Virus record (IMG/VR): IMGVR_UViG_3300046028_005303
Location: 1 to 52,644 of that record
Direction: 5' to 3' (one strand)
Source: a virus
Length of the DNA stretch: 52,644 nt
Under the pieces are notes generated by a model. That model saw only the letters and a list, made by a program, of their open reading frames with translations, was not told the DNA's origin and ran no database searches. This document shows, one piece after another, positions 1 through 45,384 of this stretch; position 1 is the stretch's first letter; each line of letters starts with the position of its first letter. Both the position numbers and the translations under genes were made by a program.

Positions 1-1
1 T

Positions 2-997
2 AACAAAGGTTTCGATATTGACATAATATGTGACAAATGTAACCATAATTATACAATTAATAGAAGTTTATTATTTTATAGGTTTGGATCTGATTTAAAT
101 CCATGTACCAACTGTAACCAAGTAAATAATTTATCATCAATAAAAGAAAGTGAATTATGTTTATTCTTATCAGAAAATAATATTGAATATATTAAAAATG
201 ATAGAAATATTTTAAATAAAAAAGAAATTGATATTTATATTCCATATCATAATATTGCCATTGAATTTAATGGTATTTATTGGCATTCCAATTTATTTAA
301 ATCCAAAGAATATCATCAGGAAAAAACAAATATGTGTGAATTGAAGAATATTCAATTAATTCAAATATTTGAAGATGAATGGGATAATAAAAAAGAAATT
401 GTTAAAAGTATTATATTGAATAAGTTGAAAAAAAATAACAATAAAATATACGCCAGAAAATGTATTATAAAAGAAGTTGAAACAAAAGATAAATCATTAT
501 TCTTGGATGAAAACCATATACAGGGTAAAGTTGGAAGTTCAATAAATGTTGGATTATATTATAATGATATGTTAGTTTCAATTATGACATTTGGTAAAAA
601 GAGAAAATCATTAGGAAATAAAACCATTATAAATGATGAATATGAACTTATTAGATTTTGTAATAAATTAAATACAAGTATAATTGGTGGTGCATCAAAA
701 TTATTGAATTATTTTATAAAAACATATAACCCAAATGAAATAGTTAGTTATGCTGATAGAAGATGGAGTAAAGGTGATTTATACCAAAAATTAGGATTTA
801 AAAGGATTAAAAATACAAATCCAAATTATTTTTATATTATAAATAAGAAAAGAAAAAATAGATTTGAATTTAGAAAAGATATATTAATTAAAGAAGGATT
901 TGATGCAAATAAAACAGAATCACAGATAATGGATGAAAGAGGTATTCTCCATATCTACGATTCTGGTAGTATTCTTTTTATTTTTAAAAATATATAA
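2..997 (+). CDS. Vsr-like (EDxHD-type) homing endonuclease, 5' truncated by window edge
   Basis: The reading frame is open from base 2, so the gene starts upstream of the window; the first ATG at 332 lies inside the catalytic domain and is not the true start. Seen: an N-terminal zinc-ribbon-like pair (CDKC near the left edge and CTNC about 30 residues on), then EIDIYIP, IAIEFNGIYWH, a conserved Cys and LIQIFEDEW, followed by a C-terminal region ending ILHIYDSGSILFIF. This order is typical of phage-encoded Vsr-like (very-short-patch-repair fold) homing endonucleases related to I-Bth0305I. Such enzymes cut a target in a sister phage and spread their own gene. It sits directly before a tandem repeat array and converges on the tail sheath gene. 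It could alternatively be the tail of a larger protein carrying such a domain. Confidence 0.75.
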   Translation, partial: NKGFDIDIICDKCNHNYTINRSLLFYRFGSDLNPCTNCNQVNNLSSIKESELCLFLSENNIEYIKNDRNILNKKEIDIYIPYHNIAIEFNGIYWHSNLFKSKEYHQEKTNMCELKNIQLIQIFEDEWDNKKEIVKSIILNKLKKNNNKIYARKCIIKEVETKDKSLFLDENHIQGKVGSSINVGLYYNDMLVSIMTFGKKRKSLGNKTIINDEYELIRFCNKLNTSIIGGASKLLNYFIKTYNPNEIVSYADRRWSKGDLYQKLGFKRIKNTNPNYFYIINKKRKNRFEFRKDILIKEGFDANKTESQIMDERGILHIYDSGSILFIFKNI

Positions 998-1036
998 AAA
1001 AAACTTGAATATTAAATTAATAATTTATATTTTTAC

Positions 1037-1274
1037 ACTAGAGATCCTAGATACTAGAGATCCTAGATACTAGAGATCCTAGATACTAGAGATCCTAGAT
1101 ACTAGAGATCCTAGATACTAGAGATCCTAGATACTAGAGATCCTAGATACTAGAGATCCTAGATACTAGATATCCTAGATACTAGAGATCCTAGATACTA
1201 GAGATCCTAGATACTAGAGATCCTAGATACTAGAGATACTAGATACTAGAGATCCTAGATACTAGAGATCCTAG
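1037..1274. repeat. 16-bp tandem repeat array, about 15 units
   Basis: The unit is actagagatcctagat, repeated head to tail with almost no divergence. Units begin at 1037, 1053, 1069 and so on every 16 bases to 1261, the last being 14 bases. The unit at 1165 has a G-to-T change and that at 1229 a C-to-A change, each destroying the central GATC. Every unit carries two CTAG tetramers and thirteen carry GATC. The array is clearly richer in G+C than its surroundings and lies between two convergent genes. It has no open frame worth calling and no spacers. Confidence 0.97.
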
Positions 1275-1320: not shown

Positions 1321-1340
1321 ACTAGATACTAGATACTAGT
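1321..1340. repeat. Short 7-bp repeat remnant related to the 16-bp array
   Basis: actagat is repeated and closes with actagt, about 50 bases after the main array. It matches the half-unit seen in the variant repeat at 1229-1244, suggesting the 16-mer and 7-mer share an origin. The sequence between the array and this remnant (1275-1320) is plain AT-rich DNA with no visible feature. Confidence 0.8.
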
Positions 1341-1358
1341 ATATAAAAAAATATAAAA

Positions 1359-1392
1359 AAATCCCCAAATATTATTAAATAAATGGGGATTT
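1359..1392 (-). terminator. Rho-independent terminator of the tail sheath gene
   Basis: A perfect 9-bp stem (aaatcccca / tggggattt) with a 16-base loop lies about 45 bases beyond the sheath stop codon. Read on the minus strand it runs into a T-rich tract. The other side is also A/T rich, so it may work in both directions at this convergent junction. Confidence 0.75.
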
Positions 1393-1438: not shown

Positions 1439-4285
1439 TTATATATTGTCAAATGACGCACCTGTAGGTGTTATAATAAATTCTACATCAATAAATTCTA
1501 ATGATCTTGCAGGTTTTATGTAAATTTTACCTCTAAGAGTATTTGCATCAATATCTTCTGGTTCATTTGATACCGTTACACGGAATTCATATAAACCTCT
1601 TTCTCTTTTTATTGATTCTAATATTGGATTTACCAATCTTAAAAATTCATTCCTTACTTGTTCATCATTTTGTTCGAAAAGTAATCTAACTGCAACTGCA
1701 GAAATAAGTTTTCTTGCTCTTAATAATAATCTTCTAACATTTATTCTATCTAAAGCCGATTCTCTTACTTGAAGAGTTTTATTTCCCCAAATTATTGTTC
1801 CAGTATCAGAAAAAGTTGCTATTGGATTTATTCTATTTTTATATAATTCATCTCTTTCATCAAGAGTTAATTTTTTTATTGCTTTTATAGATTTCACTAA
1901 TCCTCTTGAATAACCAGCAACTGCAAACCATGGGAAAGATACATTATCTGTTAATGCTATATTTCTTACAACCTCACCAGTTGGAGGTATAAATAATTGA
2001 GTGGCATTATCAACATCTCTAACTTGTATCCATGGCCAATATGTTGCCGAATAATTAGTATCTAAAGAAACACTATCTAAAGCATCTACAACTTCTTCAA
2101 CTGTTGAATAATTTGGTGGTGCAATAATATAAAGTGAATCTGCTCTTTCATTTTCAATAATATCAATCGCTTGTGATGTTAATGAACTATGGTCATAAAA
2201 ATTAATACCAGGAGTTGCAAAAATATTAATATTAACTGATTCAGGATTTGAAAATGTGTTTATACCTTGTAAATAAGAATAGTAATCAGAGTTACCAACA
2301 GATGTACTGAATAAACCACCATTTGATGTGTTACCACTAACATATGTTTGTTTTCCAAAGATATATTGATCACCATATGTTCTAACTTGTCTGTATATAT
2401 CCCAGCCATCATAACCACCACATACTGCAAAAGTAAATTTACGGTAATTAATATTTGTTAAAACATTATCAACACCTGTTTGACTTTCTAAATTATATGG
2501 TGTTGTAATAAAGGTTGTTCCCGTAATAGGTGCTGCGTTTACTGATAAGTGGAAACCATTTGTTGTTGTAATTGCTGACGTACCTTTGAACTTAAATAAA
2601 TCTTTATCAAATCCTATTTGTGAAGAAAGACCAAAACTTATTTTTTTAATTTTATCACCTGATGATTGAACATCAGATCCATCTGCATTATATCCAACAA
2701 TATCTCCAGCATCATAAAATTCAGTCTTATACATGATAGAACCTAATGTAGATCCTGAAAATGAAGAATTATTTACAAAACCTTTAAATCCTGCTGGAAA
2801 TGCGTCTACTGGATGATTTGATGCCATGTTTAACATGATATACCTTGAACGTAATTCATATTCACTATCAGACGTACCAACTTTTCTTGCAACATATCCA
2901 GGTAAATCAGGATTCATTGAACAACGTGAGAATTTTTCAATTACAACTTGATTTTCATCAGTATCATTAAAATCCCTAACTAAAAGATCAAATTCACCTG
3001 TTTCAATATTAATATTTATAATTGAAATTTTAACTTCAGCATTTGCACTATTTCCATCAGAAATAGTTATTACTTGAAATAAATCAGAAACTTTACCACC
3101 TCTAACTTCTGATACTACCATTGGTGATAATGGGGTGTCCCATTGAGTTGCGTAATTATTTCCTTCTGAAACATATACTTCATCTAAACTTAGACCTCTA
3201 ATAAAACCTTGTTTATATGCTGATGATAAATAATTAGGATACGCTTCATGTACATAAATCGGAATCTCATCTTTTGGTTTATCAAAAACATCAGTACCTA
3301 AAACTTTTGTTACATATTTTGGTGATGTTGTATCCATAGAACATGTAAATACTTTAGATCCACTTGTTGAACCTGTTACATTAACAGTAAATTCAGATAA
3401 AGGATTCTTCAATATATCATTTCCACTAATATTAAATTGAGTATTACCTGTTGTTTCAAGTAATAATGTTTGTCCTGAATAAGAACCTCTTGATCTAAAA
3501 GAAAGTACTACTTGATTATGATAATCAGTTAATACTGTTGAATTATATACAAATTGAGTTACATTAAATGTTCCTGTACCTCCTGATGTATAAACAAATA
3601 AATAAGAATAAACTTGAGTACCATTACTATTACACAATTGATTATACCATTCTTTATTATTTGGATTTGTTGAATTTATAAGACCAGTTAATGGTGATAT
3701 TTCTTCATCACTACTAACCAAACCTGTTGTTGCACTTTCAGGTACTAAACCAATAACAAACCATTGACCATTATTACTATTAGTATTAGTACTGAACGTA
3801 CTATCCATATAATTTAAAAAAGTTTCACCATCATATGTTGTTATTCCAGATAAGTTTTGATAAAATGTACTTCCGGTTATTTGAGCGCTTGTTGATGGAT
3901 CACATGTACCACTGGTTGAACCACTATATGACCCCAAATCTATACCACCAATTGTTTTAATTGAGAAAGTTTTAACAGGTTTATATCCTGTTAATCCTAA
4001 TATTTTTGTCACAAAAAGTTGATTTGATTCCTCAAGATACGATTTTGCTACATATGGTAATTCATATTTTGGATTACCATTACCATCTTTCACAGGTGTT
4101 GAACCACCGAAGTATTGTTTAAATTCGTTATAATCACTAATAAGTATGGGTTCAAAAGCTGGACCTTTTAATGTTTCACCAACTAATCCGAGAGTTGTGA
4201 CACCAACACTTTGAGCAACAAATGTTAAATCTTTTTCTGATGTATAAACACCTGGAGATACGAAAACTCTATTTGAATTTGACAT
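1439..4285 (-). CDS. Tail sheath protein, gp18-like
   Basis: Contractile sheath subunit that polymerises around the tail tube and shortens to drive injection. The 948-residue protein begins with the sheath-type start VFVSPGVYTSEKDL and ends with the conserved sheath domain (about residues 780-948): LYKNRINPIATFSDTGTIIWG, then RRLLLRARKLISAVAVRLLF and the closing IYIKPARSLEFIDVEFIITP. It is longer than T4 gp18 (659 residues); the extra length is in the middle (about 110-650), a Gly/Ser/Thr-rich part likely exposed on the sheath surface. A GATATTTATA element lies 37 bases upstream of the ATG and a terminator follows. It heads the group with the gp15-like and gp14-like genes, as in T4 neck/tail synteny. 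Confidence 0.93.
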   Translation of the reverse strand: MSNSNRVFVSPGVYTSEKDLTFVAQSVGVTTLGLVGETLKGPAFEPILISDYNEFKQYFGGSTPVKDGNGNPKYELPYVAKSYLEESNQLFVTKILGLTGYKPVKTFSIKTIGGIDLGSYSGSTSGTCDPSTSAQITGSTFYQNLSGITTYDGETFLNYMDSTFSTNTNSNNGQWFVIGLVPESATTGLVSSDEEISPLTGLINSTNPNNKEWYNQLCNSNGTQVYSYLFVYTSGGTGTFNVTQFVYNSTVLTDYHNQVVLSFRSRGSYSGQTLLLETTGNTQFNISGNDILKNPLSEFTVNVTGSTSGSKVFTCSMDTTSPKYVTKVLGTDVFDKPKDEIPIYVHEAYPNYLSSAYKQGFIRGLSLDEVYVSEGNNYATQWDTPLSPMVVSEVRGGKVSDLFQVITISDGNSANAEVKISIININIETGEFDLLVRDFNDTDENQVVIEKFSRCSMNPDLPGYVARKVGTSDSEYELRSRYIMLNMASNHPVDAFPAGFKGFVNNSSFSGSTLGSIMYKTEFYDAGDIVGYNADGSDVQSSGDKIKKISFGLSSQIGFDKDLFKFKGTSAITTTNGFHLSVNAAPITGTTFITTPYNLESQTGVDNVLTNINYRKFTFAVCGGYDGWDIYRQVRTYGDQYIFGKQTYVSGNTSNGGLFSTSVGNSDYYSYLQGINTFSNPESVNINIFATPGINFYDHSSLTSQAIDIIENERADSLYIIAPPNYSTVEEVVDALDSVSLDTNYSATYWPWIQVRDVDNATQLFIPPTGEVVRNIALTDNVSFPWFAVAGYSRGLVKSIKAIKKLTLDERDELYKNRINPIATFSDTGTIIWGNKTLQVRESALDRINVRRLLLRARKLISAVAVRLLFEQNDEQVRNEFLRLVNPILESIKRERGLYEFRVTVSNEPEDIDANTLRGKIYIKPARSLEFIDVEFIITPTGASFDNI

Positions 4286-6229: not shown

Positions 6230-6237
6230 TATATTTG
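6230..6237 (+). promoter_or_regulatory. Bacteroidota-type -7 box (TATATTTG) before the SNF2 helicase
   Basis: TATATTTG fits the Bacteroidota -7 consensus TAnnTTTG. TTTTG at 6206-6210 lies 19 bases upstream, the right distance for the -33 element. The box ends six bases before the ATG at 6244, so the transcript would have little or no leader. Confidence 0.55.
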
Positions 6238-6243
6238 TATTGT

Positions 6244-9096
6244 ATGGAGAATTTAATACCTGAAAAAGAAGCAAGAGAATTATTGTTAAAATATGAAGGA
6301 TTTAACAATCAAATATTAGATTGGAAACTAAAAATGGTTACTAATGTAAAATATAATTTAACAAGAACACAATCTGAATATGTTATAAAATATTATAATG
6401 TTATACCAAAAATAGCTAAAAAATATATAACTATCACCAATAATTTTGCTGAGACTTTAATGAAAGATAAAAATTTATCTTCATTACCTGAAAAAATTTG
6501 GTGTGAAAAATTATTATGCGAAAGTGATAACGCTTACCATATATGGGGTAAATTAAATGAAAAACAAAATAATTACGCAATCTGGTTACCAAAATTTGCA
6601 ATAATTCAAGAAGAGAAAAAATTAAATAGAGTTATTGATTATTCACCTTATTCTCATAGGGCACCCATGAATCATCAAAAAGAAGCAATAGAAAAATTAT
6701 TATCAAATAATAAATTCATCTTAGCTGACGATATGGGCGTGGGTAAATTCTTATCAAATAATACATTGATTTACACAGAGTTAGGTGTTAAAAAAATGGG
6801 TGAAATTTTGGTAGGAGATAGGGTGATTGGTTCAAACGGTAATCCTTGTAATGTAATAGGTGTTTTCCCACAAGGAATAAAAGACACCTATAAAATAACA
6901 TTTAACGATGGGTATTCAATTATTTCTGGTGATGAACATTTATGGTCGGTCTCATCACCTAACTATGGTAAAAATACAAAAAATGAAAGATTAAAAAAAT
7001 CGTTAATTTTATCTACAAAACAAATGTTTGAAGGGGGGGTAATAACAATAAAAGGTGATGGATATAATTCAGAAAAAAATTATAACATTGAAACTTATTA
7101 TAAATCTCCAAACGGTAATAATAAATGGCAAATTCCAATTGTAAAACCAATAGAATTTAACAATAATAACGAATTACCGATAGATCCTTATTTATTTGGA
7201 CTTGGTTTAGGTGATGGGTCTTTTAATAAAAAAAATATAAGATTTAGTGTTCATAAAGACGATTATGATGAGTTATTTGAAAACTTTAATTTAAAAGAAA
7301 ATAAATCACAGGATAATAAGAGAAATGGTTATATTAATGTTGGGGACGTTCTATTTGATTTAAACATTGAAGATACTCGTTCTCATAATAAATTTATACC
7401 TGAGATATATAAATATTCGTCTATTGAGAACCGACTTGCAATATTACAAGGTTTAATGGATACAGACGGTCATTGTATGTTATCTAAAAATGGTGTTTTT
7501 AAAGGAACTGAATATTCAACAATTTCCGAAAAATTATGTGATGATGTGTGTGAAATCGTTCAAACACTAGGTGGAATTGCAAGAAAAAAATCAAGAAAAA
7601 GTTATTATAAAAAAGATGGTAAACGTGTAGAATGTTCAATATCTTATCGTGTAAATATAAAATTACCATCAGGGATGAATCCGTTTCGTTTAAAACGAAA
7701 GTCAGAAAGATATAATGAACCTCAAAAATATCCAACTGGTAGATATATCAAGAATATTGAAAAAATTGGTCAAGATGAATGTACGTGTATATCTGTTGAT
7801 GCACCTGATAAGTTATATGTTGCAGAACATTGTATTGTTACACATAATACCACATCTGCTATTATAGCTTCATTAGAGAGTGAATCAAAGAAAGTTTTAG
7901 TTATTTGTCCATCATCATTAAAAATAAATTGGTATAGAGAAATAAAAAATTATTCTGATAAAAATATATTAATCGTAGAAGGTAAAAATTGGGAACCAAC
8001 TTTTGATTTTTATATTATTAATTATGATATTTTAAAAAATTATCATAGTATGGAAAAGACGGAAAATATTGAATCATATAAGTTAATTGAAAATGAAAAA
8101 TTTGATTTAGTTATTATTGACGAGGCACATTATATTTCAAATCCTACTGCACAAAGAACTAAATTGATTAATGATTTGGTTAAGAATATCCCCAAAGTTT
8201 GGTTATTAACAGGAACACCAATGACATCAAGACCTATCAACTATTATAATTTATTAAAAATAGTTGATTCACCAATTGCGTTAAATTGGCAAGGTTATGT
8301 GAAAAGATATTGTGCGGGATATCAATTTAAAGTTGGGGGTAAAAAAATATGGAATACGAATGGTTCATCTAATTTAGATGAACTTAGAGAAAGAACTAAA
8401 AATATTGTTTTAAGAAGAATGAAAACAGATATTCTTGATTTACCTGAAAAGATGGTTAGTCCAATATTTTTAGATTTAACTAGTACGTTTTATAGTGATG
8501 AATTGGAAGATTTTATACGAATTTCAAAAGATAATAGGAATAAAGAATCTTTAACAGTTACAATAAATCGTTTAATGAAATTAAGACAAGTCATTGCATT
8601 TGAAAAAGTACCATATACTTGTGAGTTAATTGATAAAGTTATTGAACAAGGAAAAAAAGTTATTGTATTTACGAATTTCACATCAAGTTTAGATATGTTA
8701 CATGAAAAATATAAAAAAAATTCGGTAATTCTTGATGGTAGAATGTCAAAAGAAAAAAGACAACAAAGTGTGGATAAATTTCAAAATGATGACAAAACAA
8801 AAATATTCATATCAAATATTAAAGCTGGTGGTGTTGGAATTACATTAACAGCTGCAGAGGTGGTTATAATGAACGACTTATCATTCGTACCTTCTGACCA
8901 TTCACAAGCAGAAGATAGAGCTTACAGGTACGGTCAAAAAAATAGTGTATTAGTTTATTATCCTGTTTTTGAAAATACTATTGAAATGATTGTTTATAAT
9001 ATTTTACAAAAAAAGAAAAACATTATTGATCAAGTTATGGGTGATGGTGAATATGGTGAAAGTTTTGCCAATTCATTACTTAAGAGCCTCTTTTAA
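6244..9096 (+). CDS. SNF2-family DNA helicase/ATPase interrupted by an in-frame intein
   Basis: Superfamily 2 ATPase remodelling or unwinding DNA, probably filling a role like T4 UvsW in replication and repair. The ATG at 6244 is preferred over an in-frame TTG at 6235 that lies inside the promoter box. Host motifs: HQKEAI (Q-like), P-loop DDMGVGK^TT split by the intein after residue 168, IIDEAH (motif II), LTGTP (III), VIVFTNFTSSLDMLHEKYK, and GGVGITLTAAEVV with QAEDRAYRYGQ (V-VI, diagnostic for SNF2). Without the intein (residues 169-535) the host is 583 residues. The intein keeps the frame, so the gene is not broken. The gene's last 21 bases overlap the end of the convergent gene 9076-10068. 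Confidence 0.92.
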   Translation: MENLIPEKEARELLLKYEGFNNQILDWKLKMVTNVKYNLTRTQSEYVIKYYNVIPKIAKKYITITNNFAETLMKDKNLSSLPEKIWCEKLLCESDNAYHIWGKLNEKQNNYAIWLPKFAIIQEEKKLNRVIDYSPYSHRAPMNHQKEAIEKLLSNNKFILADDMGVGKFLSNNTLIYTELGVKKMGEILVGDRVIGSNGNPCNVIGVFPQGIKDTYKITFNDGYSIISGDEHLWSVSSPNYGKNTKNERLKKSLILSTKQMFEGGVITIKGDGYNSEKNYNIETYYKSPNGNNKWQIPIVKPIEFNNNNELPIDPYLFGLGLGDGSFNKKNIRFSVHKDDYDELFENFNLKENKSQDNKRNGYINVGDVLFDLNIEDTRSHNKFIPEIYKYSSIENRLAILQGLMDTDGHCMLSKNGVFKGTEYSTISEKLCDDVCEIVQTLGGIARKKSRKSYYKKDGKRVECSISYRVNIKLPSGMNPFRLKRKSERYNEPQKYPTGRYIKNIEKIGQDECTCISVDAPDKLYVAEHCIVTHNTTSAIIASLESESKKVLVICPSSLKINWYREIKNYSDKNILIVEGKNWEPTFDFYIINYDILKNYHSMEKTENIESYKLIENEKFDLVIIDEAHYISNPTAQRTKLINDLVKNIPKVWLLTGTPMTSRPINYYNLLKIVDSPIALNWQGYVKRYCAGYQFKVGGKKIWNTNGSSNLDELRERTKNIVLRRMKTDILDLPEKMVSPIFLDLTSTFYSDELEDFIRISKDNRNKESLTVTINRLMKLRQVIAFEKVPYTCELIDKVIEQGKKVIVFTNFTSSLDMLHEKYKKNSVILDGRMSKEKRQQSVDKFQNDDKTKIFISNIKAGGVGITLTAAEVVIMNDLSFVPSDHSQAEDRAYRYGQKNSVLVYYPVFENTIEMIVYNILQKKKNIIDQVMGDGEYGESFANSLLKSLF
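6748..7848 (+). other. Class 3-type LAGLIDADG intein in the helicase P-loop
   Basis: A 367-residue insertion between GVGK and TTSAI. It starts with Phe (FLSNNTLIYT), not Cys, Ser or Ala, and ends IVTHN before Thr+1. Seen: Trp after block B His (DEHLW), Cys at the block F position (CTCISVD) and Thr in block G (VTHN). This Trp/Cys/Thr set defines class 3 inteins, in which block F Cys replaces residue 1 as first nucleophile. Two LAGLIDADG motifs (PYLFGLGLGDGS; LAILQGLMDTDGH) indicate a homing endonuclease. It is clearly homologous over its whole length to the PhoH intein. Confidence 0.9.
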
Positions 9097-16285: not shown

Positions 16286-16289
16286 ACGT

Positions 16290-16299
16290 TATAAATATT
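16290..16299 (-). promoter_or_regulatory. Putative late promoter box (AATATTTATA) before gene 15917-16285
   Basis: On the minus strand AATATTTATA ends four bases before the ATG. The spacing equals that at the tail fibre gene. The remaining intergenic sequence up to 16404 holds nothing recognisable. Confidence 0.4.
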
Positions 16300-16404
16300 T
16301 TATTTTAAGATTGTATTATAAAACTCTGACCACATTATTTTTAATAACATTTAAAATAAATAGTTTAAAAAATATTATTATAAGTAAAAAAAGGTGTTTT
16401 GTTG

Positions 16405-16641
16405 TTATAAATTCATTTCAGGATATATAACTTCAAAGTCAATGGGTGTTCCAAGTATTTGACTTTCGTTACAAAAGACAATGTACCAAAATGGTGGTTC
16501 ATTTAACGCAGCATATTGTACGTCAACCGCCTGCAAGGTTGTTCCACCTGGCTTTGGTAATCCTTCGTTTATTCGACAAATGTCCTGTGCGTGTAAGGCG
16601 TCATCCTCATTATTGTATTTGTATCCGTTAATAGATTCCAT
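16405..16641 (-). CDS. Hypothetical small protein of the fibre region
   Basis: A 78-residue protein: ESINGYKYNNEDDALHAQD at the start, a Pro/Gly loop (GLPKPGGTT), then PPFWYIVFCNESQILGTPID. I do not recognise it. The start resembles small proteins often found beside phage tail fibres, where a short N-terminal YxYxxxxDA motif precedes a compact domain. It shares with the 73-residue neighbour at 16862-17083 a Trp-aromatic strand near the C-terminal third (PFWYIVF and TWFLFL), which may point to a common fold. It has more varied codon use and higher G+C than its neighbours. Confidence 0.6.
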   Translation of the reverse strand: MESINGYKYNNEDDALHAQDICRINEGLPKPGGTTLQAVDVQYAALNEPPFWYIVFCNESQILGTPIDFEVIYPEMNL

Positions 16642-16711
16642 AATTTGTATTTATATTTGTGTTAATTTTTATAATATTAGATTATTGATTATTAGTGTAC
16701 ATTACTATTTC

Positions 16712-16855
16712 TTACAATGTACCATTTAGAAAATATACAACACTTCTATTAAAATAAGTAGTCATTAATGTAAATTTTCCGTTATTTGTTCCACCCAAAG
16801 GATTTAAATTTAAACTATTTGTGTCTGTATCTATTGAAAAATTATTTATTTCCAT
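16712..16855 (-). CDS. Hypothetical very small protein (47 residues)
   Basis: A short frame from ATG 16855, beginning EINNFSIDTDTNSLNLNPLG and ending SVVYFLNGTL. It lies tightly (6 bases) after the 73-residue gene 16862-17083 and on the same strand as all its neighbours, filling what would otherwise be a gap. The Asn/Thr/Ser composition and single Gly-Gly turn look like a tail-associated peptide. No family is recognised, and chance cannot be excluded for a frame this short. Confidence 0.4.
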   Translation of the reverse strand: MEINNFSIDTDTNSLNLNPLGGTNNGKFTLMTTYFNRSVVYFLNGTL

Positions 16856-16861
16856 GTTATT

Positions 16862-17083
16862 TTAGTTAAGGTTAAAATCTGGTGGCAACGGTGGAACATA
16901 TTCTCCCGTTGGTAATGTTAAAAGGTATTGAAATTCTTGTGGTAAAATTTCAATGTCTTGATGAGATAAGAATAAAAACCATGTTCCATTAATATCTTGA
17001 ACGCAATTAAAAAATATGTTATCAGTAAAAAATACACCTTTTATTTCTTGTTTTTGTTCAACTGTTAAAATATATCCTATCAT
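16862..17083 (-). CDS. Hypothetical small protein of the fibre region
   Basis: A 73-residue protein: IGYILTVEQKQEIKGVFFTD, NCVQDINGTWFLFLSHQDIE and a Pro-rich tail VPPLPPDFNLN. It starts five bases after the fibre stop codon, so it is almost certainly translated with it. The position immediately after a long fibre is where fibre chaperones or assembly helpers are often found, but no sequence match supports that here. It may be distantly related to the 78-residue protein two genes on. Confidence 0.6.
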   Translation of the reverse strand: MIGYILTVEQKQEIKGVFFTDNIFFNCVQDINGTWFLFLSHQDIEILPQEFQYLLTLPTGEYVPPLPPDFNLN

Positions 17084-17088
17084 AATTA

Positions 17089-20000
17089 CTAATTTACTTG
17101 GCGATTTAAACTTATTTGGAATGATTGAACTGATGTATAAAAATTGGATGCCTCGGTATTGGTTAATCCTTCATTTAAAGAAGCAAAAGCGCATTCTCTA
17201 TCTGAAAATAGGCTTCCAAAACCACTAAGTTTTAATTCTTGATTATTTAATATACCATCATAACTTGAATTCTGTCCAACAACTACTCCATTATAATTAA
17301 AATTAAACCCATTTGTTGATAATCCAATTCTATTGGTTTGCCAAAATCCTACATTTGTTACACCATAATTATAATCAATGTTAGCATTGGTATTATTTCT
17401 AACTCTAGCACTTGTAGAACCAAGACCTAAAAGAATATGAGTACCTCCCCCTAAACTTGGTTCTCCTATATCGTAACCTAATTTATTTGAATTAGTTCTA
17501 TTATAGAAACTCATACCAAATAAAAAAATTGTTTTAACATATCCTGTATTCATAACGGCACCTGTTCCATTAGGTTTAGCACCATTACTTGTATAAGTCC
17601 ATCCATTACTAAATGTTCCAGTGAAACTTGCGCTCTTTAAATTCTGTGCACACGCTGCCGCACTTGCTCCCACCATCGGATAAATGGCTATCATCTTATC
17701 CCAGATACCATCTGCCTTCATGGCAAGTACCAAAGTATTAACCGCGTTTTGTTCCGTTGCTGTCAAAGTTCCTCCTGCCGTTGTAACACGGTTAAAGAAT
17801 GTCTGAGCATCTGCGTCATAAACTGGTGTTACTGTTGGTGTACTAGTTAATGTCGGTGTTAATGTCGGTGTTAATGTCGGTGTTAATGTCGGTGTACTAG
17901 TTAATGTTGGTGTCGGTGTATTAGTTAATGTGGGTGAAGGTGTTGGTGTTGGTGTTGGTGGTATATATATCTCATAGTGCGTGTTTATGTTTGTCTGTAT
18001 TCCAAGTAGATTTGATTCTTGATTGGAATTATAAATTATTATTTCTTGCATTCTTCCAACAAATTTGTCCTGACTTGTACCTACAGAAGAACCTAAATAA
18101 TTAATACCAGATGAAAATAATGGATTACCAACAAACGATCTATCTAAATTATTATTTATATATGTTTTTATTCCTGTATTTGTTGTTAACGCAGTATTTA
18201 AATAAATTTGATTACTATTTCTAATAGTCGATGAACTTATAAATTCAATTTGTCCAGTTCTTAATAATTGATAACTTCCACCGTTATATCTACTTAAAAA
18301 TGAACCAGCATCACCACCTACAACATTAGATCTATTAATTGTTTCTACTGATGTTAAATCAAAAATTGAATAAAGACTATTAGTTGTTGTTATTATTGAT
18401 GTTAAGATTAATGTACGAGAATTAAATTTTATTGCTTTTTTATTATTTAAAAGCTCAACAACTCCATTAGTTACTATTTGCGGTTGATTCGCCTGCGTTG
18501 ACATTGTTGCATTATTTGCATTACTACTTTGGTCATACCATGTGGTTACAAATCCATTTACAGAGCCAACAAATGTTGTTAATGTCGTTGTATCTAAATT
18601 ACCACCCACAAATCCAATATCTTGCTCTGTGTTATCACTTGACCTTCTCACTCTTATTGCGCTTCCCGAATATTCTGTTCTAAGTTTACGCAAAGAATAT
18701 GCTGCAGCTGCATTTGTGTAAAGGTCTAAAAGTAAAGCACCTGATGTTGGGGTAACTGTTGGTGTTGGTGTTAATGTCAACGTACTAGTTAATGTCGGTG
18801 TATTAGTTAATGTCGGTGTTAATGTCGGTGTACTAGTTAATGTCGGTGTATTAGTTAATGTGGGTGAAGGTGTTGGTGTACTAGTTTTTGTTGGTGTTTG
18901 TGTACTAGTTAATGTTGGTGTATTAGTTAATGTTGGTGTTGGTGTACTAGTTAATGTGGGTGTTAATGTTGATGTTAATGTCGGTGTATTAGTTAATGTT
19001 GGTGTTTGTGTACTAGTTAATGTAGGTGTTAATGTTGGTGTTTGTGTACTAGTTAATGTAGGTGTTAATGTTGGTGTTTGTGTACTAGTTAATGTAGGTG
19101 AAGGTGTTGGTGTACTAGTTCTTGTTGGTGTTTGTGTACTAGTTAATGTTGGTGTATTAGTTAATGTCGGTGTTTGTGTACTAGTTAATGTAGGTGAAGG
19201 TGTTGGTGTTTGTGTACTGGTTAATGTCGGTGTATTAGTTAATGTCGGTGTATTAGTTAATGTCGGTGTTGGTGTACTAGTTAATGTCGGTGAAGGTGTT
19301 GGTGTTTGTGTTGGTGTTGGCGTTGGAGTACTAGTTAATGTTGGTGTTGGTGTTCTAGTTAATAATCTAACAATATTATCTATACAATCACTTGTACATT
19401 CATTTATGGAATAATTTGGTTTCACAGATGTTAAATAGTGATGTTTAATATGAACAAAATCCAATGGTTCCTCAAAATATTTAATTTTTTTAATTTGAAA
19501 TAGAGTGTTTCCTGTGTGTATGTCATTATACGATATCGTACCTCCACCCCATTTTTGAATTATTTCATTTTCAGATTCTCTTAATGATGGAATAATTTCT
19601 TCCCAATTTTCTAATTTATATATGGTTTTTCCATTATGAAATATTTTTAATGTTCCTAATCTTCGTTTTTTATTATCGGACCATTTTTTATTTAACATTT
19701 CAATATATTCGTTAGTTATTGTACCACCTGATATCCAATCTTTTAAAGTGTTTATGATTGTATATCCTGTTGTGATTTGTGTTGTTGTTGAACCAGTATT
19801 ACCATTATAGTCAATAGTGTATAGATTTCGAATTAAATCATTTGTTCCACCTTTATTTTCAATATCACAATCTTCATAATGATTATATCTATCAAAAGTT
19901 ATTGTGATGTTGAAATCGGAAGAAGTTCCATTTGAACATAAAATAGGTGTTTGCCCTGATGAAATATAGTAAGATTCAGTATACCCTGTTGTTGAATCAC

Positions 20001-21730: not shown

Positions 21731-22687
21731 ATGGCAACTCAATTAGAAATAATAGCTGAACAACAAAGACAACAACATTTATCAACAAATCAGTACAATT
21801 ATAATCAATTGTATGATTCAAATAATTTAAATGCGTTATCTAGTAATGACGAAAAAGGTAAAGGAGAGTTGAATGGTAATATAGGTTCTAAAAAAGATAT
21901 ACTTGAAAGGAACTCATTATTATCTAAGAATTTATATAATAATAAATTTTTATATGATTCTAACAATCCAAACGCAATATCTGATGGTGATGAAAAGGGA
22001 AAGGGGGAAACAACAAAATCAATAGGTGGATTAACTGATATTAATGTTAGAAACATTCTATTAGGTAAAAACATATACACATCTAATAATGGTTATGGTA
22101 CTAATAACCCAAACGCAATATCTGATGGTGATGATAAAGGAAAAGGTGAAAATAATAATGGTAGTATTGGTTCTAATAAAGATATACTTGAAAGAACAAC
22201 TTTATTATCAAAAAATATTTATAAACCATTAAATGATTATAATTCAAAACACCCAAACGCAATATCTAACGGTGATGATAAAGGGAAAGGTGAAAATTCA
22301 AATGGTGTTATTGGTTCTAAAACAGATATAAATAAAAGGAATGAACTTTTATCAAAAAACATTTATAAAACAGGTTTTTTATATGGTTCAAATAATCCAA
22401 ATGCAAAATCTAATGGTGATGAAAAAGGTAGAGGAGAAATTGATGGTTTTGTTGGTACTAAAACAGATATGAATGAAAGAGTAAATTTACATTCTAAAAA
22501 TATATATAGACCAAATTATCCTTATAATTCAAATAATCCAAACGCTATATCTAATGGTGATGAAAAAGGTAGAGGTGAACGTAATGGTATTGTTGGAACA
22601 AAGACAGATATTAGTGAAAGAACATTATTAATTGCACGAAATAAATATAACTCTACTGAAGATTATAAGAAAAAAACTATTTTTTAA
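21731..22687 (+). CDS. Repeat protein with six ~47-residue NPNAISxGDEKGKGE repeats
   Basis: A 318-residue protein made almost wholly of six tandem copies of a unit with the core SNNPNAISNGDEKGRGE, then NGxIGxKTDIxERxxLLSKNIY. The N-terminal 25 residues are Gln/Asn rich (AEQQRQQHLSTNQYNYNQLY). Regular spacing of Gly, Asp and Tyr suggests an elongated, possibly metal-binding structural protein. Similar repeats occur in structural regions of other T4-like Bacteroidota phages as far as I recall; the exact role is not known. Neighbours are spaced by one base on the left and overlap by one base on the right, so it belongs to one operon with the presumed virion proteins. Confidence 0.7.
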   Translation: MATQLEIIAEQQRQQHLSTNQYNYNQLYDSNNLNALSSNDEKGKGELNGNIGSKKDILERNSLLSKNLYNNKFLYDSNNPNAISDGDEKGKGETTKSIGGLTDINVRNILLGKNIYTSNNGYGTNNPNAISDGDDKGKGENNNGSIGSNKDILERTTLLSKNIYKPLNDYNSKHPNAISNGDDKGKGENSNGVIGSKTDINKRNELLSKNIYKTGFLYGSNNPNAKSNGDEKGRGEIDGFVGTKTDMNERVNLHSKNIYRPNYPYNSNNPNAISNGDEKGRGERNGIVGTKTDISERTLLIARNKYNSTEDYKKKTIF

Positions 22688-26525: not shown

Positions 26526-28322
26526 TTGAGAAAATCAAATTTGAATTCAGAAAATAATACTGAAAATAAAACACCTAAGAAAGAAAGAATTAGGCAAATA
26601 ATAAAAGAACCAAAAGAAAAATTTTTAACAACAAATCAAGAAGAATATTGGAAAATTTTAGGTGAAAATGAAATTACCTTATGTTTTGGACCTGCTGGTG
26701 TGGGAAAAGCACAGCCTTTAGATTCCATTATTTATACTCCTGATGGTGAAAAAACTATGGGGGATATTGAAGTTGGTGATTATGTGATTGGTGAAGATGG
26801 TAAAAAAACTAAAGTGATTGCCACACATCCTCAAGGAATTAAACCTATTTATAGAGTTTTATTTAATGATGGTTCTTTTACTGAAACATGTAATGAACAT
26901 TTATGGTTTACACAAACAGAAAAAGATAGAAATAATCGTACAAAAATTAAAGGTGAAAGATTTAAAAATCCATTAAAAGGGAGTGTTAAAGAATTATCAG
27001 AAATAAGAGAAAGTATTATTTCTAGTCGTGGATATAAAAACCATACGATTCCAATAACTAAACCTGTAAATTTTAATGAAGTTCCTCTTTTTGTAAAACC
27101 ATATTTAATGGGTATTTTATTGGGTGATGGTGGACTTTCACAGGAAAGAATAACATTTACTACTGCTGATACTGAAATAGTTGATAATATCAATTATTTA
27201 ATTCCTGAAACTTGTGTTCTTAAAGAAGTACCATCTGCTAAATATGGTTATTCAATTGTTTCTAAACGAATAGAGACTTCTAATAATTTAATTCTCGATG
27301 AAATTAGAGAGTGTAGGTTAAATAGTATAAAAAGTATAAATAAATTTATACCTAAAAAATATCTTTTTAATTCAGTAGAAAATAGAATAGAACTTTTACA
27401 AGGATTATTAGATAGTGATGGATATGTAAATAGAAATGGAACATCAGTTTTTTACACAACAACATCAGTAGAACTAATGAATGATGTTAAATTTTTAGTA
27501 AATAGTTTAGGTGGTGTAGTCAATATCACTAATAAAAAACCTTTTTACAGAGATAAAAATGGTAATAAAATTATTTGTAATATCGCATATACATTAACAA
27601 TAAATCTTCCAAACGATATAAAACCATTTAAACTCAAAAGAAAATTAGATTTAGTAAAACCAAAAACTAAATACCCCCCAAAAAGATTTATAACTAGTAT
27701 TGATTATGTTGGAGATAAAGAAGCTAAATGTATAACTATTGATTCTGAAAACCAATTATATTTAACTGATAATTTCATAGTGACACATAACTCGTACATT
27801 GCCATGAAAAAAGCAGTGACATTATTATGGGACGATAAAAATAAGTATGAAAAAATTATAATAGTAAGACCAGCAGTAGAAGCTGAAGAAAAGTTAGGAT
27901 CATTACCAGGTAATTTAGAAGAAAAACTTGACCCATATATTTATCCGTCTTATTATTTATTGAATAAAATTATTGGTAAAGAATGTAGAGAAAAATTAAA
28001 ACAAGAAGGTTTTATTGAAGTAGCTGCTTTAGCTTTCATGAGAGGATGGAATGTTGATAATACGATTCTTATATTTGAAGAAGCACAAAATACAACACCT
28101 TCACAAATGAAACTTTTACTAACAAGAATAGGATATAATTCAAAGTTTTTTATTTCAGGTGATTTAGAACAATCAGATAAATTTAAAGATAAAACAAAAA
28201 CAGGATTATATGATGCTAAGGTGAGATTAGAGAATATAAAAAATGTTGGTTTTTTTGAATTTGATACAAAAGATATTGTTCGTAATCCTATAATTGGCGA
28301 AATATTAAAAAGGTATGATTAA
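26526..28322 (+). CDS. PhoH-like ATPase interrupted by an in-frame intein
   Basis: P-loop ATPase of the PhoH family, common in T4-like phages; its role there is unsettled (RNA or nucleotide metabolism is proposed). The start is TTG at 26526, as no ATG occurs early in the frame. Host motifs: FGPAGVGK^SYIAM (P-loop, split after residue 61), IIIVRPAVEAEEKLGSLPGN, FMRGWNVDNTILIFEEAQN (Walker B), SGDLEQSD and the C-terminal DIVRNPIIGEIL. Without the intein the host is 237 residues, a normal length. The N-terminal 55 residues are a basic, Asn/Lys-rich extension. Confidence 0.93.
   Translation: MRKSNLNSENNTENKTPKKERIRQIIKEPKEKFLTTNQEEYWKILGENEITLCFGPAGVGKAQPLDSIIYTPDGEKTMGDIEVGDYVIGEDGKKTKVIATHPQGIKPIYRVLFNDGSFTETCNEHLWFTQTEKDRNNRTKIKGERFKNPLKGSVKELSEIRESIISSRGYKNHTIPITKPVNFNEVPLFVKPYLMGILLGDGGLSQERITFTTADTEIVDNINYLIPETCVLKEVPSAKYGYSIVSKRIETSNNLILDEIRECRLNSIKSINKFIPKKYLFNSVENRIELLQGLLDSDGYVNRNGTSVFYTTTSVELMNDVKFLVNSLGGVVNITNKKPFYRDKNGNKIICNIAYTLTINLPNDIKPFKLKRKLDLVKPKTKYPPKRFITSIDYVGDKEAKCITIDSENQLYLTDNFIVTHNSYIAMKKAVTLLWDDKNKYEKIIIVRPAVEAEEKLGSLPGNLEEKLDPYIYPSYYLLNKIIGKECREKLKQEGFIEVAALAFMRGWNVDNTILIFEEAQNTTPSQMKLLLTRIGYNSKFFISGDLEQSDKFKDKTKTGLYDAKVRLENIKNVGFFEFDTKDIVRNPIIGEILKRYD
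26709..27791 (+). other. Class 3-type LAGLIDADG intein in the PhoH P-loop
   Basis: A 361-residue insertion between AGVGK and SYIAM. It begins AQPLDSIIYT (Ala1) and ends IVTHN before Ser+1. It shows Trp after block B (NEHLW), Cys at the block F position (AKCITID) and Thr in block G (VTHN), the class 3 set. Endonuclease motifs: PYLMGILLGDGG and IELLQGLLDSDGY. It aligns along its length with the helicase intein, including MGDIEVGDYVIG, HPQGIKPIYRVLFNDG, NKFIP and PFKLKRK stretches. Confidence 0.92.
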
Positions 28323-32156: not shown

Positions 32157-34099
32157 TGAGTAAATTAAGAAATACTAAAAATTCTCTTTTATCATTAATT
32201 GAAGGTATAAAAAAAATTAATGATGACCCAAAAGGATTTTCAAATTCATTTGAAAATAAATATCCTAAAAATATACCGTCAACAAATGATTTTGTTGGTA
32301 AGAAACTTGATAGTTTAAAACAAAGAAAAAACCAAAAAAAAGAAAACAAAAAAGATATTTTCAATGAAATTTTAGAAGTTGTTGAACAATTTTTAAGTGT
32401 TGACAAAAAAACTAAACAATCTGAAATATCACAAAGTGGTTCTACAGTAAATTCAGAAAAAAACAACGTCAAAAAAAAAATAAATAGACATGCAATAAGT
32501 GCAAGTGAAAAGGCTTTAGCGTCAGCTAAGGAAATAGTGATAAAAAGGTTATCTGAATGTTTATTTGTTGGCGATGGTATTTGTGGTACAAACAGACCTA
32601 TTACTGGTGACACAATAAACTTAAGACCTGAAGAATTCGATTTATTAGATATTTTAACTGTTGATCCGGCGTCATCATTAGGTCAAATTGTTTATGAACC
32701 TAAATCAACAGAAAGAAATAAACAAAAAGTTAATAGAGAATTATACACCATATTTAGTGGAGGTACATATGATTTTATTTCTAATAACGATAATACATTA
32801 TTTACAACTACTTGGGATGTAAATAACCAACATTATACATTTTCAGGATTAACACAAGGAAATGTTTCAGGTATAAAAGTACAAGATTTTATATCTGATT
32901 ATTATTCATCGATAGAGTTTCCTGAAATAAATGATATAATTAAAACCGGAATGTTGTTAACAATTCAGGGAGGTCAAAATAGTGGTAAAACTATTCAATT
33001 TGATAAATCATTAAATCTTGTCGACAGGTTATTAAAAAAGTTACTTTCTGTTTGTGGTTCAGATACAAAAAAAGATGAACTTAAAAATCAAAATGCCGTT
33101 GATATGTTTGACGAAAATGAAGAAGATATTGAATCCTATTTTGATTTTGATGATGTTGAAGGAATTGATTTAGATGATGAAAATTTAAGATATAGAGGGG
33201 TTTTAAAATTTAAAGATTGTTATAATTTTGAAATAGATGTTGATGATACACATATGGAAGATTTTGTTTATTTAGTAAAAAATAAACAAGCAAAAAAAGT
33301 TATTGATGATGTATTAACAAAAGTCGCTACCGATGCTAATGAACAATCTAATAATTCATTAAAAATACCTGATTTATTTTCTAATTTAATAAATAACTTT
33401 ATACTTAACTTACCTAAGGCATTAATAATGTCTGTATTGTCTGCAAAAATGTTTTTACCTTTAATTATTCTTTACAAATATTTTAAAATGATGTCACTAA
33501 ATGTTATTTTAAATGTTAAAGATTTAATTAAAAAATTTAATAAGGCTATTTTTAATATTGTAAAAGATTTATTTTGGTTATTCATAAATGAATTTTGGAG
33601 ACTTATTAAAATAGATTTAATTGCGTTTGTAACTAAATTAGTAAAAAAAATAATTAAAGAAAAATATAAAAGATATGTCCTTATCGTTTCATCTTTAATA
33701 AATCTATTAAAGAGTGTTCAACAAACAAATGTTGATAATTGTTTCAGTATTTTTGAATTAATACTTAAAACTATTAATGGTGCGATTAATATGAAAGGTC
33801 CAATATCGATACCTTCTGTTTTATTATTCACAGCTGATTTAAGTTCAGGATATAGTAAAGAACGTGCTTTTTTAAGTATTGTTGAAAAAATGTCTTCTCT
33901 TGGTGTTAATACAGGTCCAATATATGGTGAAGATAATCAGTTATTAACCATAGTAAAATCTATAATTGATGGACATATTGAAGAGGAGGATACGAATTCT
34001 TTTGTAAAAATAGTACTAAAAGGTGGGTATTTACCAGGACCTTTAGGTGGTGCGGTGATACCTCCAGGTGTGATTACTGGTGTTGGTAAAAAAATATAA
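32156..34099 (+). CDS. Putative tail/baseplate structural protein with hydrophobic helices
   Basis: A 647-residue protein. The N-terminal 120 residues are Lys/Asn rich and helical. A middle part has short strands (IFSGGTYDFISNN, LLTIQGGQNSGKTIQFD) and an acidic stretch (DENEEDIESYFDFDDVEGID). Residues about 410-540 hold hydrophobic helices (ALIMSVLSAKMFLPLIILYK; LFWLFINEFWRLIK). The C-terminus is Gly/Pro rich (GGYLPGPLGGAVIPPGVITG), like the ends of several baseplate or injection proteins. The GQNSGKT segment resembles a P-loop but lacks a Walker B partner. It is placed between the sigma factor and an OB-fold spike-type gene, consistent with a baseplate or membrane-interacting part. Confidence 0.55.
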   Translation: MSKLRNTKNSLLSLIEGIKKINDDPKGFSNSFENKYPKNIPSTNDFVGKKLDSLKQRKNQKKENKKDIFNEILEVVEQFLSVDKKTKQSEISQSGSTVNSEKNNVKKKINRHAISASEKALASAKEIVIKRLSECLFVGDGICGTNRPITGDTINLRPEEFDLLDILTVDPASSLGQIVYEPKSTERNKQKVNRELYTIFSGGTYDFISNNDNTLFTTTWDVNNQHYTFSGLTQGNVSGIKVQDFISDYYSSIEFPEINDIIKTGMLLTIQGGQNSGKTIQFDKSLNLVDRLLKKLLSVCGSDTKKDELKNQNAVDMFDENEEDIESYFDFDDVEGIDLDDENLRYRGVLKFKDCYNFEIDVDDTHMEDFVYLVKNKQAKKVIDDVLTKVATDANEQSNNSLKIPDLFSNLINNFILNLPKALIMSVLSAKMFLPLIILYKYFKMMSLNVILNVKDLIKKFNKAIFNIVKDLFWLFINEFWRLIKIDLIAFVTKLVKKIIKEKYKRYVLIVSSLINLLKSVQQTNVDNCFSIFELILKTINGAINMKGPISIPSVLLFTADLSSGYSKERAFLSIVEKMSSLGVNTGPIYGEDNQLLTIVKSIIDGHIEEEDTNSFVKIVLKGGYLPGPLGGAVIPPGVITGVGKKI

Positions 34100-40851: not shown

Positions 40852-41601
40852 ATGAAACATTCAGAAGTATTAAGTAGATATGTGAATACCGGTACACAAA
40901 TACCAGAAAAACAATATGACCGTTTAACACCAGTGTTAAAGAAGTCTTATCTTAGAATGAGAAGGGTTGCAGGTTATGACGGTTGGGAATTTAAATTTTT
41001 AACTGATGATGAAAGAATAAAATCTATTGAAAAAAAAGGTAAAGAATTACTTCAAAATGAAATAAATTATTTACTTTATAGTTCAAATGATAATGACCTT
41101 ATTGCAACAAAAATTATTGATGTGAAAGGTGAAAAATTGAGTCATTATGATATATTTCATTTACTTAAACGATCAAAAAGTATAGATAATATCGCAATAA
41201 AAATTATTGAAGTAAAAGGTGAAGATTTGGATTATAATGATATACATGAATTAATTCATTATTCACGTAATAAAGACCTTATTGCAACAAAAATTATTGA
41301 TGTAAAAGGTGAAAAATTGTGGTCACAAGAAATAAAAATTTTACTTCAACATACTTCTGAAAACATTGAAGTAAAAATAATTCAAACAAAAGAAATTAAA
41401 TTAAGTAAAATCGATATAAATAATTTACTTACATATTCAAAAGATAAAGAATTAATAAAGAAATTATTATTACAAAATGGTGTTGATTATAAATTAATAA
41501 ATGATGCAATAACAAATTATAAAATAGATATTCCATTAATACCAGATAATTACCAGTCAATGTTACAAGAAATAAAAAGGATTAAAGAGATAATGAAATA
41601 A
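40852..41601 (+). CDS. Helical repeat protein
   Basis: A 249-residue protein. After KHSEVLSRYVNTGTQIPEKQ it has repeats of about 30-36 residues with the core DLIATKIIDVKGEKL followed by a short helix (YDIFHLLKRSKSID; YNDIHELIHYSRNKD; INNLLTYSKDKE). Two copies are almost identical in DNA (41095-41139 and 41275-41319, one mismatch in 45 bases). The repeats look like an ankyrin/HEAT-like or leucine-rich-type solenoid. The N-terminus is similar to the end of the preceding protein (TLTDKQFDYFLSVSKD vs QIPEKQYDRLTPVLKK). Function unknown; a protein-binding role is likely. Confidence 0.6.
   Translation: MKHSEVLSRYVNTGTQIPEKQYDRLTPVLKKSYLRMRRVAGYDGWEFKFLTDDERIKSIEKKGKELLQNEINYLLYSSNDNDLIATKIIDVKGEKLSHYDIFHLLKRSKSIDNIAIKIIEVKGEDLDYNDIHELIHYSRNKDLIATKIIDVKGEKLWSQEIKILLQHTSENIEVKIIQTKEIKLSKIDINNLLTYSKDKELIKKLLLQNGVDYKLINDAITNYKIDIPLIPDNYQSMLQEIKRIKEIMK
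41095..41319 (+). repeat. 45-bp direct repeat, 180 bases apart
   Basis: Two copies (41095-41139 and 41275-41319) differ at one base (tgtg/tgta). The spacing is exactly 180 bases, equal to two protein repeat units, so it reflects recent duplication inside the repeat protein gene. Confidence 0.9.
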
Positions 41602-44073: not shown

Positions 44074-45384
44074 TTATTTTAATTTTGACATTAAGTCTTT
44101 CATTCTTCTAAACTGAGGATTTTCATAAGCTTTCGATTCAGAAAGAACCTGAGTTGAGGAAGAAGTAGTCGGACTTGTCCTTAGTTTTTCAACCACAGAT
44201 TCAGATACAGGTTTTTTTGTATCTAAATCATTTTTAAGATTATTGTAAAGATTCTTTGATTCTTTCAATGTTGAAACCGAATCAAATTTCTTTAAAATGT
44301 TTATTTTTTCTTTTTTTGTGGTAGAATGTTCAGTAAATAAACGTGTAGCGTAAGCTAAATTAGCGTTGAATACAGCAACTTCATTAAGTTTATCTTTAAA
44401 AAGAATTAATGCTTTTCTATATTCTGTATTCTGTTTTTTTAGTTTTGTTACTTCTTCATTAATTGCACCTGATGCAAATAATTTCTTACCTTTTATTCCT
44501 GCTCTGTCAGCACCACCTTTGTCTCCGTGTATATTCCATTTAGTTCTTGCTGCTTCACCCACATCACCTTCTGGTGACATCATTTCTTCTTCTGGTTCAC
44601 CATCAAGGTCTATTTCATATACTACTTCGTCATCGTTATTCATATGACTTTTAATTGTATCATTAAAATTATCTTCTTCGTCCATTGACATATCTTTGTC
44701 ACCAAAGAATGAATCTTCATCTTCTTCGTCACCAAAGAATTCATCATCTTCGTCCATTGACAAATCTTCGTCACCAAAGAATTCATCTTCTTCGTCCATT
44801 GGATATTCGTCCATTTCTGATTCGTCTAATTTAATGATATATTCATTATCACCATCTTTAAATTCGATTTGACCATCGTCTTTTTTAACGATAAACCCAT
44901 CTTCAGGTTTCATTGCTTTAAAAATTCTTAAAACTTCTTCAGGACTTGCGTCTGTTGCGTTAAAAACTTCACTGTCTTGTGAATCAAACCCACCCATATC
45001 AGGTTGGTCGTCACCCATATTTAAACTATCGAAATCTGATTCTTCATCGTCCATGTCTAATTCTTCATCATCCATTTCTGAATCTTCATCGTCCATTTCT
45101 GAATCTTCATCGTCCATGTCTAATTCTTCATCATCCATTTCTGAATCTTCATCATCCATTTCTTCGTTATCAAGGTCTTCATCACCTTCATCAGGTACAT
45201 CTTTTTTTCCTTTCTTAGGAGCCTGTTCGTAAACATCGTCCTCTTCTTCCAAAGATTCTTTCAACAAATCATTTAGTTCTTGTTTCATAGTAGAAGCAAG
45301 TATACCTTTTGCGTTTGTTTTTACGGCCTCTTCAAGTGTTTGAACTTGAAGCAATGCTTGTTCTAAAATTGATTTTTCGTTCAT
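44074..45384 (-). CDS. Prohead core scaffolding protein, gp22-like
   Basis: Forms the internal core on which the prohead shell assembles and is later degraded by the gp21-like protease. The 436-residue protein has an N-terminal helix (EKSILEQALLQVQTLEEAVK), a very acidic central part (about 75-250) with seven-residue repeats such as DDEDSEM and DDEELDM, then a helical part: LKKQNTEYRKALILFKDKLN and EVAVFNANLAYATRLFTEHS, ending NPQFRRMKDLMSKLK. The LxxLNEVAVFNANLAYATRLF pattern is characteristic of gp22-type scaffolds in T4-like phages. Several L-x-E sites (for example VLSE) are candidate cuts. Its position between gp21-like and gp23-like genes matches T4. Confidence 0.82.
   Translation of the reverse strand: MNEKSILEQALLQVQTLEEAVKTNAKGILASTMKQELNDLLKESLEEEDDVYEQAPKKGKKDVPDEGDEDLDNEEMDDEDSEMDDEELDMDDEDSEMDDEDSEMDDEELDMDDEESDFDSLNMGDDQPDMGGFDSQDSEVFNATDASPEEVLRIFKAMKPEDGFIVKKDDGQIEFKDGDNEYIIKLDESEMDEYPMDEEDEFFGDEDLSMDEDDEFFGDEEDEDSFFGDKDMSMDEEDNFNDTIKSHMNNDDEVVYEIDLDGEPEEEMMSPEGDVGEAARTKWNIHGDKGGADRAGIKGKKLFASGAINEEVTKLKKQNTEYRKALILFKDKLNEVAVFNANLAYATRLFTEHSTTKKEKINILKKFDSVSTLKESKNLYNNLKNDLDTKKPVSESVVEKLRTSPTTSSSTQVLSESKAYENPQFRRMKDLMSKLK
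45051..45162 (-). repeat. 21-bp tandem repeats coding acidic heptads in the scaffold
   Basis: Plus-strand units such as ccatttctgaatcttcatcgt and ccatgtctaattcttcatcat alternate with a 21-base period, coding DDEDSEM/DDEELDM heptads. Two unit types are interleaved, suggesting a duplication of a 42-base pair of units. Confidence 0.85.

Follow-up and report, generated by a model that had tools for sequence, protein, structure and literature searches.

A 16-bp tandem array as one lineage's candidate form of a CTAG-site element beside the tail tube gene of uncultured large T4-like phages

What is a nearly perfect tandem array of 16-bp units, dense in CTAG, doing beside the tail genes of a phage? 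The window analysed here is the whole 52,644 nt stretch of IMG/VR record IMGVR_UViG_3300046028_005303 (positions 1 to 52,644), and the array lies close to its left end. A first-pass annotation had suggested a replication origin, a packaging signal, an array bound by a phage DNA-organising or partition protein, or a target linked to the adjacent homing endonuclease. The features of the locus are these.

1..997, plus strand: homing endonuclease gene, 5′ end lost at the window edge (phrog_3339, E 9.6e-85)
1003..1036, minus strand: promoter-side flank, TGTAAAAATATAAATTATTAATTTAATATTCAAG on the minus strand, read from the sequence
1037..1274, no strand assigned: main array, ACTAGAGATCCTAGAT repeated 14.9 times in tandem, with 30 CTAG and 13 GATC
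1322..1339, no strand assigned: mini-array CTAGATACTAGATACTAG, with three CTAG and a CTAG-TAT-CTAG run; the sole part retained in relative L041
1354..1391, minus strand: probable sheath-gene intrinsic terminator, with an ATCCCCA/TGGGGAT stem, a long loop and a T tract, found by eye
1439..4285, minus strand: tail sheath protein, gp18-like, 948 aa (PHROG phrog_23, E 1.5e-60)

The array and its setting

The array is real and non-random. TRF reports 1037-1274 as period 16 with 14.9 copies and 98% matches, and a pattern search for the unit matched 12 units exactly and two with one mismatch, the last unit being truncated, against a mean of 0.36 and a maximum of 4 matches in shuffled controls. The 30 CTAG sites fall within 1038-1274. 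The two point variants described earlier were verified at 1166 (GATATC) and 1230 (GATACT), and each removes a GATC while leaving CTAG intact. A near copy of the promoter-side flank lies at about 1275-1321, between main array and mini-array, so that the module of array plus flank is duplicated in the window gap. An assembly artefact is unlikely because several separate IMG/VR contigs of the window group have the array; they share variant units, and comparison of array length among them gave 15, 13 or 12 units, lengths that short-read assembly of such fragmentary records may have collapsed.

At 441 nt the array gap exceeds every other clean intergenic gap in the window, although the claim that every other gap is short needs amending: a longer 803-nt stretch exists at 16286-17088 and contains unassigned small ORFs. 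An automatic terminator scan did not flag 1354..1391 because the loop exceeds the scan's permitted length; the probable terminator there would leave the array outside the sheath transcript.

Relatives found through exact copies of the unit in IMG/VR carry the array between the sheath gene and a 162-aa tail tube (gp19-like) gene on the same strand. Four of them (L020, L030, L031 and L044) have the array and no endonuclease gene; in L002, L006 (where the full-length endonuclease is 537 aa) and L013 the endonuclease is inserted between array and tube gene, as by extension it is in the window. The convergent setting noted at first is thus correct for the window, where the endonuclease (plus strand, ending at 997) faces the sheath gene (minus strand, ending at 1439), but it is secondary: it results from the inserted homing endonuclease gene, and in relatives without that gene sheath and tube are co-directional. 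The array as an endonuclease target was rejected since the array occurs without the gene; moreover, genes of various kinds have entered the gap, to one side of the element or the other. Repeated insertion of ORFs that vary in size, homing endonuclease genes among them, is seen in the sheath-tube gaps of L080, L154, L157, L201, L208, L214, L217, L314 and L325, again on either side.

Other repeats and site biases were seen in the same genomes. GATC is absent (0 each) from the long relatives G015 (L121-L136, 310,691 bp) and G017 (L137-L148, 232,626 bp), and in the window lineage stands at about a third of expectation, with 13 sites concentrated in the array; these counts suggest that GATC was once under strong restriction, which has since eased in the window lineage. 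TRF also reported in-gene tandem repeats at 17825-19363 (periods 6-96 bp), 22103-22649 (141-144 bp), 41100-41319 (90 bp) and 45035-45163 (21/63 bp), a sign of active repeat turnover elsewhere in the window genome. The helicase and PhoH-like proteins of the window (6235-9096 and 26526-28322) contain extended internal segments that match profiles from families unrelated to them (terminase, primase, helicase loader), the pattern expected of shared inteins, and in the L020 helicase the internal segment splits a P-loop GK/T; the phage appears rich in inteins. Several neighbouring G015 proteins (L122:10859-16303) have in common an N-terminal motif resembling KIIKLTESDLKNMV / KIKITESQLKMIM, which may serve in targeting or processing.

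A CTAG-site element across the clade

Loci were gathered by sheath searches, a DNA pattern search and tblastn, which gave 183 with both gap ends (106 distinct gaps) at 42-100% sheath identity. Comparison of these gaps indicates that the 16-mer array is one lineage's enlarged form of a short, clade-wide CTAG-site element in uncultured large T4-like phages. Outside the window's close relatives the gap holds no 16-mer and mostly has instead a cluster of CTAG, CCAG and CTGG (half-site CYAGTA) in AT-rich DNA. Such a cluster is found in most sheath-tube gaps, normally once per genome; it usually opens with CCAGTAT and often ends with an inverted TACTGG, and some elements begin with CCCAGTAT and finish with ATACTGGG. 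From lineage to lineage the spacers are entirely different and the CTAG-type sites are retained. Tandem units of 6, 15, 16 and 20 bp had separate origins: CTAGTTTATATTTAATTAAT is present in 2, 3 or 4 copies in L057-L059, whose sheaths are identical, while other forms are CTAGTTCTAGTATAT in L154 and CTAGAA repeats in L275.

Site enrichment was evaluated by shuffling in 43 dissimilar gaps, with representatives treated as independent despite their shared ancestry. CTAG was observed 184 times against 29 expected (6-fold), CTGG 63 times against 9.0 (7-fold) and CCAG 51 times against 12.7 (4-fold); the top 6-mers were CTAGTA and TACTGG, and the commonest distances between consecutive CTAGs were 6, 7, 9 or 14-16 bp. 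Sites are present as direct and as inverted copies and are biased in position, CCAG favouring the left half (42:4 left to right) and CTGG the right (48:15 right to left). A CCAGTAT-type motif occurs in 34 of 36 element-bearing representatives, together with W-TACTGG in 25 of the 36.

In 11 of 12 long records dense CTAG clusters are confined to the sheath-tube gap. G015 (310,691 bases) has a second cluster with perfect inverted ends at 32,261-32,339, and L239 has a similar second copy beside a related gene. Elsewhere in the long relatives G015 and G017 CTAG is depleted to 0.4 of expectation. A mobile (MITE-like) repeat was rejected because of synteny and copy number, there being one copy per record (two in G015) in the same gap clade-wide. 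A pattern search for TACCCAGTAT...CTAG...CTAG gave many matches elsewhere, in coding DNA and attributable to chance, and a 26-mer search of bacterial genome contigs gave no match.

On the sheath tree the element marks a clade of 59 rows (SH-aLRT 99). The CTAG-free lineages (L304 and a 10-row clade) branch first and retain the same gap and promoter; some of these basal gaps (L291, L305, L319) have TTAGTA/TTAGAA repeats instead. Within the 59-row clade only L337, L311 and L285 are CTAG-free, and they retain CCAG/CTGG sites. With more distant sheaths (42-46% identity) another gene occupies the gap, which shows no cluster of this kind. Judged by capsid and tube, the closest cultured phages are Microcystis Mel-JY01, Flavobacterium immuto and Rhodothermus RM378, all of them distant (capsid or tube identity about 32-42%). 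In Mel-JY01 and immuto the gap is short and contains TATTTATA without a cluster, and the element was absent from every cultured phage searched.

The window's own clade has ten members; all except L041 have 16-mer units, with CTAG counts from 10 to 33. The first-pass judgement that the array is too regular to be old therefore holds for the repeats, which are homogenised and changing, but not for the locus, which is common to the entire clade. Absence from close relatives, which the same annotation had given as a refuting observation, was found in part: L041, with 97% sheath identity, has lost the main array and has three CTAGs left. The long array thus looks dispensable, though the short element persists.

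The tube promoter and a proposed multi-site binding element

In 42 of 43 gaps the motif TATTTATA precedes the tube ATG by 37-56 nt. It lies 10-80 nt upstream of a sense ORF in 38 of 64 copies in G015 (2.1 expected) and 25 of 44 in G017 (1.5 expected), and is a statistically supported late-promoter-like motif. Both it and the T4 late promoter TATAAATA, which it resembles, are short AT-rich octamers that precede late structural genes of T4-like phages (PMC1524935); the motif here differs in reading TATTTATA. The element's promoter-side edge falls 67-91 nt upstream of TATTTATA (SD 5.8) in all 36 uninterrupted element-bearing representatives, a spacing that depends partly on our having set element boundaries by motif positions. 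The sheath-side edge in the same 36 is not fixed, lying 8-132 nt from the sheath stop (SD 31). To our knowledge, no CTAG array lies upstream of T4 gene 19.

Downstream of the element in most relatives (e.g. the L285 and L332 gaps), before the promoter, comes a conserved block, TACGAAAA...TTGACAAAGTCAAG, which contains a palindrome and is present in basal lineages without CTAG as well. The fixed spacing might be due to this conserved TACGAAA/TTGAC...GTCAA block instead. The second-site copies in G015 and L239 are 30-58 nt from TATTTATW, between divergent genes; a search with the neighbouring gene found seven relatives lacking the element, in which the upstream gene is a different one, and so gave no clean empty-site comparison.

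We consider the array probably a docking array for a DNA-binding protein. The explanation we would put first, tentatively and at rather less than an even chance, is that the array belongs to a conserved element acting in cis at the DNA level, an operator with many sites or an upstream enhancer that would control late transcription at the tube promoter. The CYAGTA half-sites (CTAG, CCAG, CTGG), clustered and often inverted in the non-coding gap between the sheath gene and the tube late promoter, would be occupied cooperatively by a phage or host protein probably acting as a dimer or larger oligomer, and the bound protein would control transcription from that promoter. Copy number would drift by slippage or unequal recombination since the number of sites is only loosely constrained. 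The two strands fold equally well and sites also occur as direct repeats, which favours dyads in the DNA over a single RNA.

What tells most against a short-range role is that the element persists in the window lineage, L080, L208 and L214, although a gene of about 1.5-1.7 kb has inserted there and parts it from the tube promoter. Also against the proposed control of transcription are the loss of the main array in L041, the basal lineages that have this gap and promoter without CTAG sites, and the lack of a comparable element at most late promoters of G015 and G017. The reading as a DNA-organising or regulatory binding array agrees with the comparison of gaps, CTAG sites persisting while spacers change and related half-sites occurring in other lineages; no binding protein was found, the TrpR family (PF01371) being absent from all six records searched and the ParB families PF02195 and PF17762 (ParB_N, HTH_ParB) from all seven searched for each.

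The operator of the Trp repressor has a CTAG-N4-CTAG core. Like it and like multi-site phage operators, the element has clustered, often inverted CTAG-core half-sites upstream of a promoter, and CTAG-N4-CTAG itself is found in some elements, e.g. L061. The elements here differ in having far more sites, with a unit length varying by lineage, and the six records, as noted, yielded no TrpR-family protein.

Alternative readings and significance

A pac-like packaging or synapsis site, at which a small terminase or its partner would bind the array on concatemers and start or align packaging, is an unlikely alternative, the first we would turn to after an operator or enhancer. Most long relatives have a single element, its sites are clustered and inverted, and it adjoins gene 19. 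Pac sites are usually, though not universally, close to terminase genes; the large terminase gene (TerL) is 41-48 kb off in G015, G016 and G019. G015 moreover has two elements, and a pac site would not require tight spacing from a promoter. Putative T4 pac sites have been proposed in g16 and g19 (PMC9958956), and the element has in common with them a position next to the tail tube gene; the T4 passage mentions no repeat array.

Another early suggestion, an origin of replication in which iteron-like sites would adjoin AT-rich DNA for unwinding, is more doubtful; for neither it nor packaging did the analysis yield positive evidence (no DnaA boxes, no clear skew signal, a distant terminase). Iteron-type origins have direct repeats of about 15-22 bp. 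Direct repeats are present here as 16-bp units in the window and as 6, 15 and 20 bp units in other lineages; periods of 15-16 bp speak for an origin, as do the inverted repeats close by and the presence of one AT-rich, repeat-dense non-coding region per genome. The element differs in lacking DnaA boxes (TTATCCACA in 0 of 43 gaps, TTATNCACA in 1 of 43). In the GC-skew profile of G015 no switch coincides with the element, and the G017 profile shows no clear break there. It is placed among late structural genes (sheath, tube) plus the endonuclease, with no initiator gene alongside.

That the element has no function, consisting of mutation-prone simple repeats spread by slippage in a tolerated spacer, we find more doubtful again. 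Copy number does change freely (2, 3 and 4 units in L057-L059; 15, 13 and 12 in the window group), and loss in L041 is near-complete. Slippage does not, however, account for the held promoter distance, or for CTAG/CCAG/CTGG and inverted ends persisting amid unrelated spacers.

Many relatives also carry a parS-like palindrome in this gap. TGTTCCACGTGGAACA lies at L137:13793-13808, once in the 232 kb of G017, and variants including TGTTTCACGTGAAACG lie beside the element in phages without detectable ParB. Two improbable readings involve a centromere. In one, a genome-unique locus like a viral satellite centromere would turn over its units quickly while retaining the short CTAG-type contact, an undescribed phage protein would gather genomes for segregation, synapsis or packaging, and in many relatives the palindrome would contact host ParB. 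The other, a centromere or tethering site interacting with host segregation machinery, is still harder to credit: the palindrome does sit between terminator and element in many relatives, and the TGTTCCACGTGGAACA 16-mer occurs in genomes of many bacterial phyla, but the window gap and lineage have no parS-like palindrome, its centre varies where present, and ParB_N and HTH_ParB are missing from the seven records, a host ParB being possible.

As improbable as a tethering site is that the gap is transcribed into a structured RNA, whether leader, stabiliser or terminator. The folding of the elements does exceed that of shuffles (mean z about -3; window array z -4.0), but this reading is disfavoured because both strands fold alike (mean z -3.1 on one, -2.8 on the other) and no Rfam match reached the threshold. 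Besides, many sites stand 2 nt from one another, which leaves too little room for local hairpins, and in most lineages the element is placed between terminator and tube promoter.

Literature searches found no description of the CTAG element, which as far as they show is previously unreported, in a large uncultured clade of T4-like phages. Its fast-changing versions form a natural series in which one short site is kept, so that comparison and simple binding assays could test the site, the protein that partners it and how many copies are tolerated. The locus offers an example, in a virus, of fast repeat turnover around a conserved and probably protein-binding motif.
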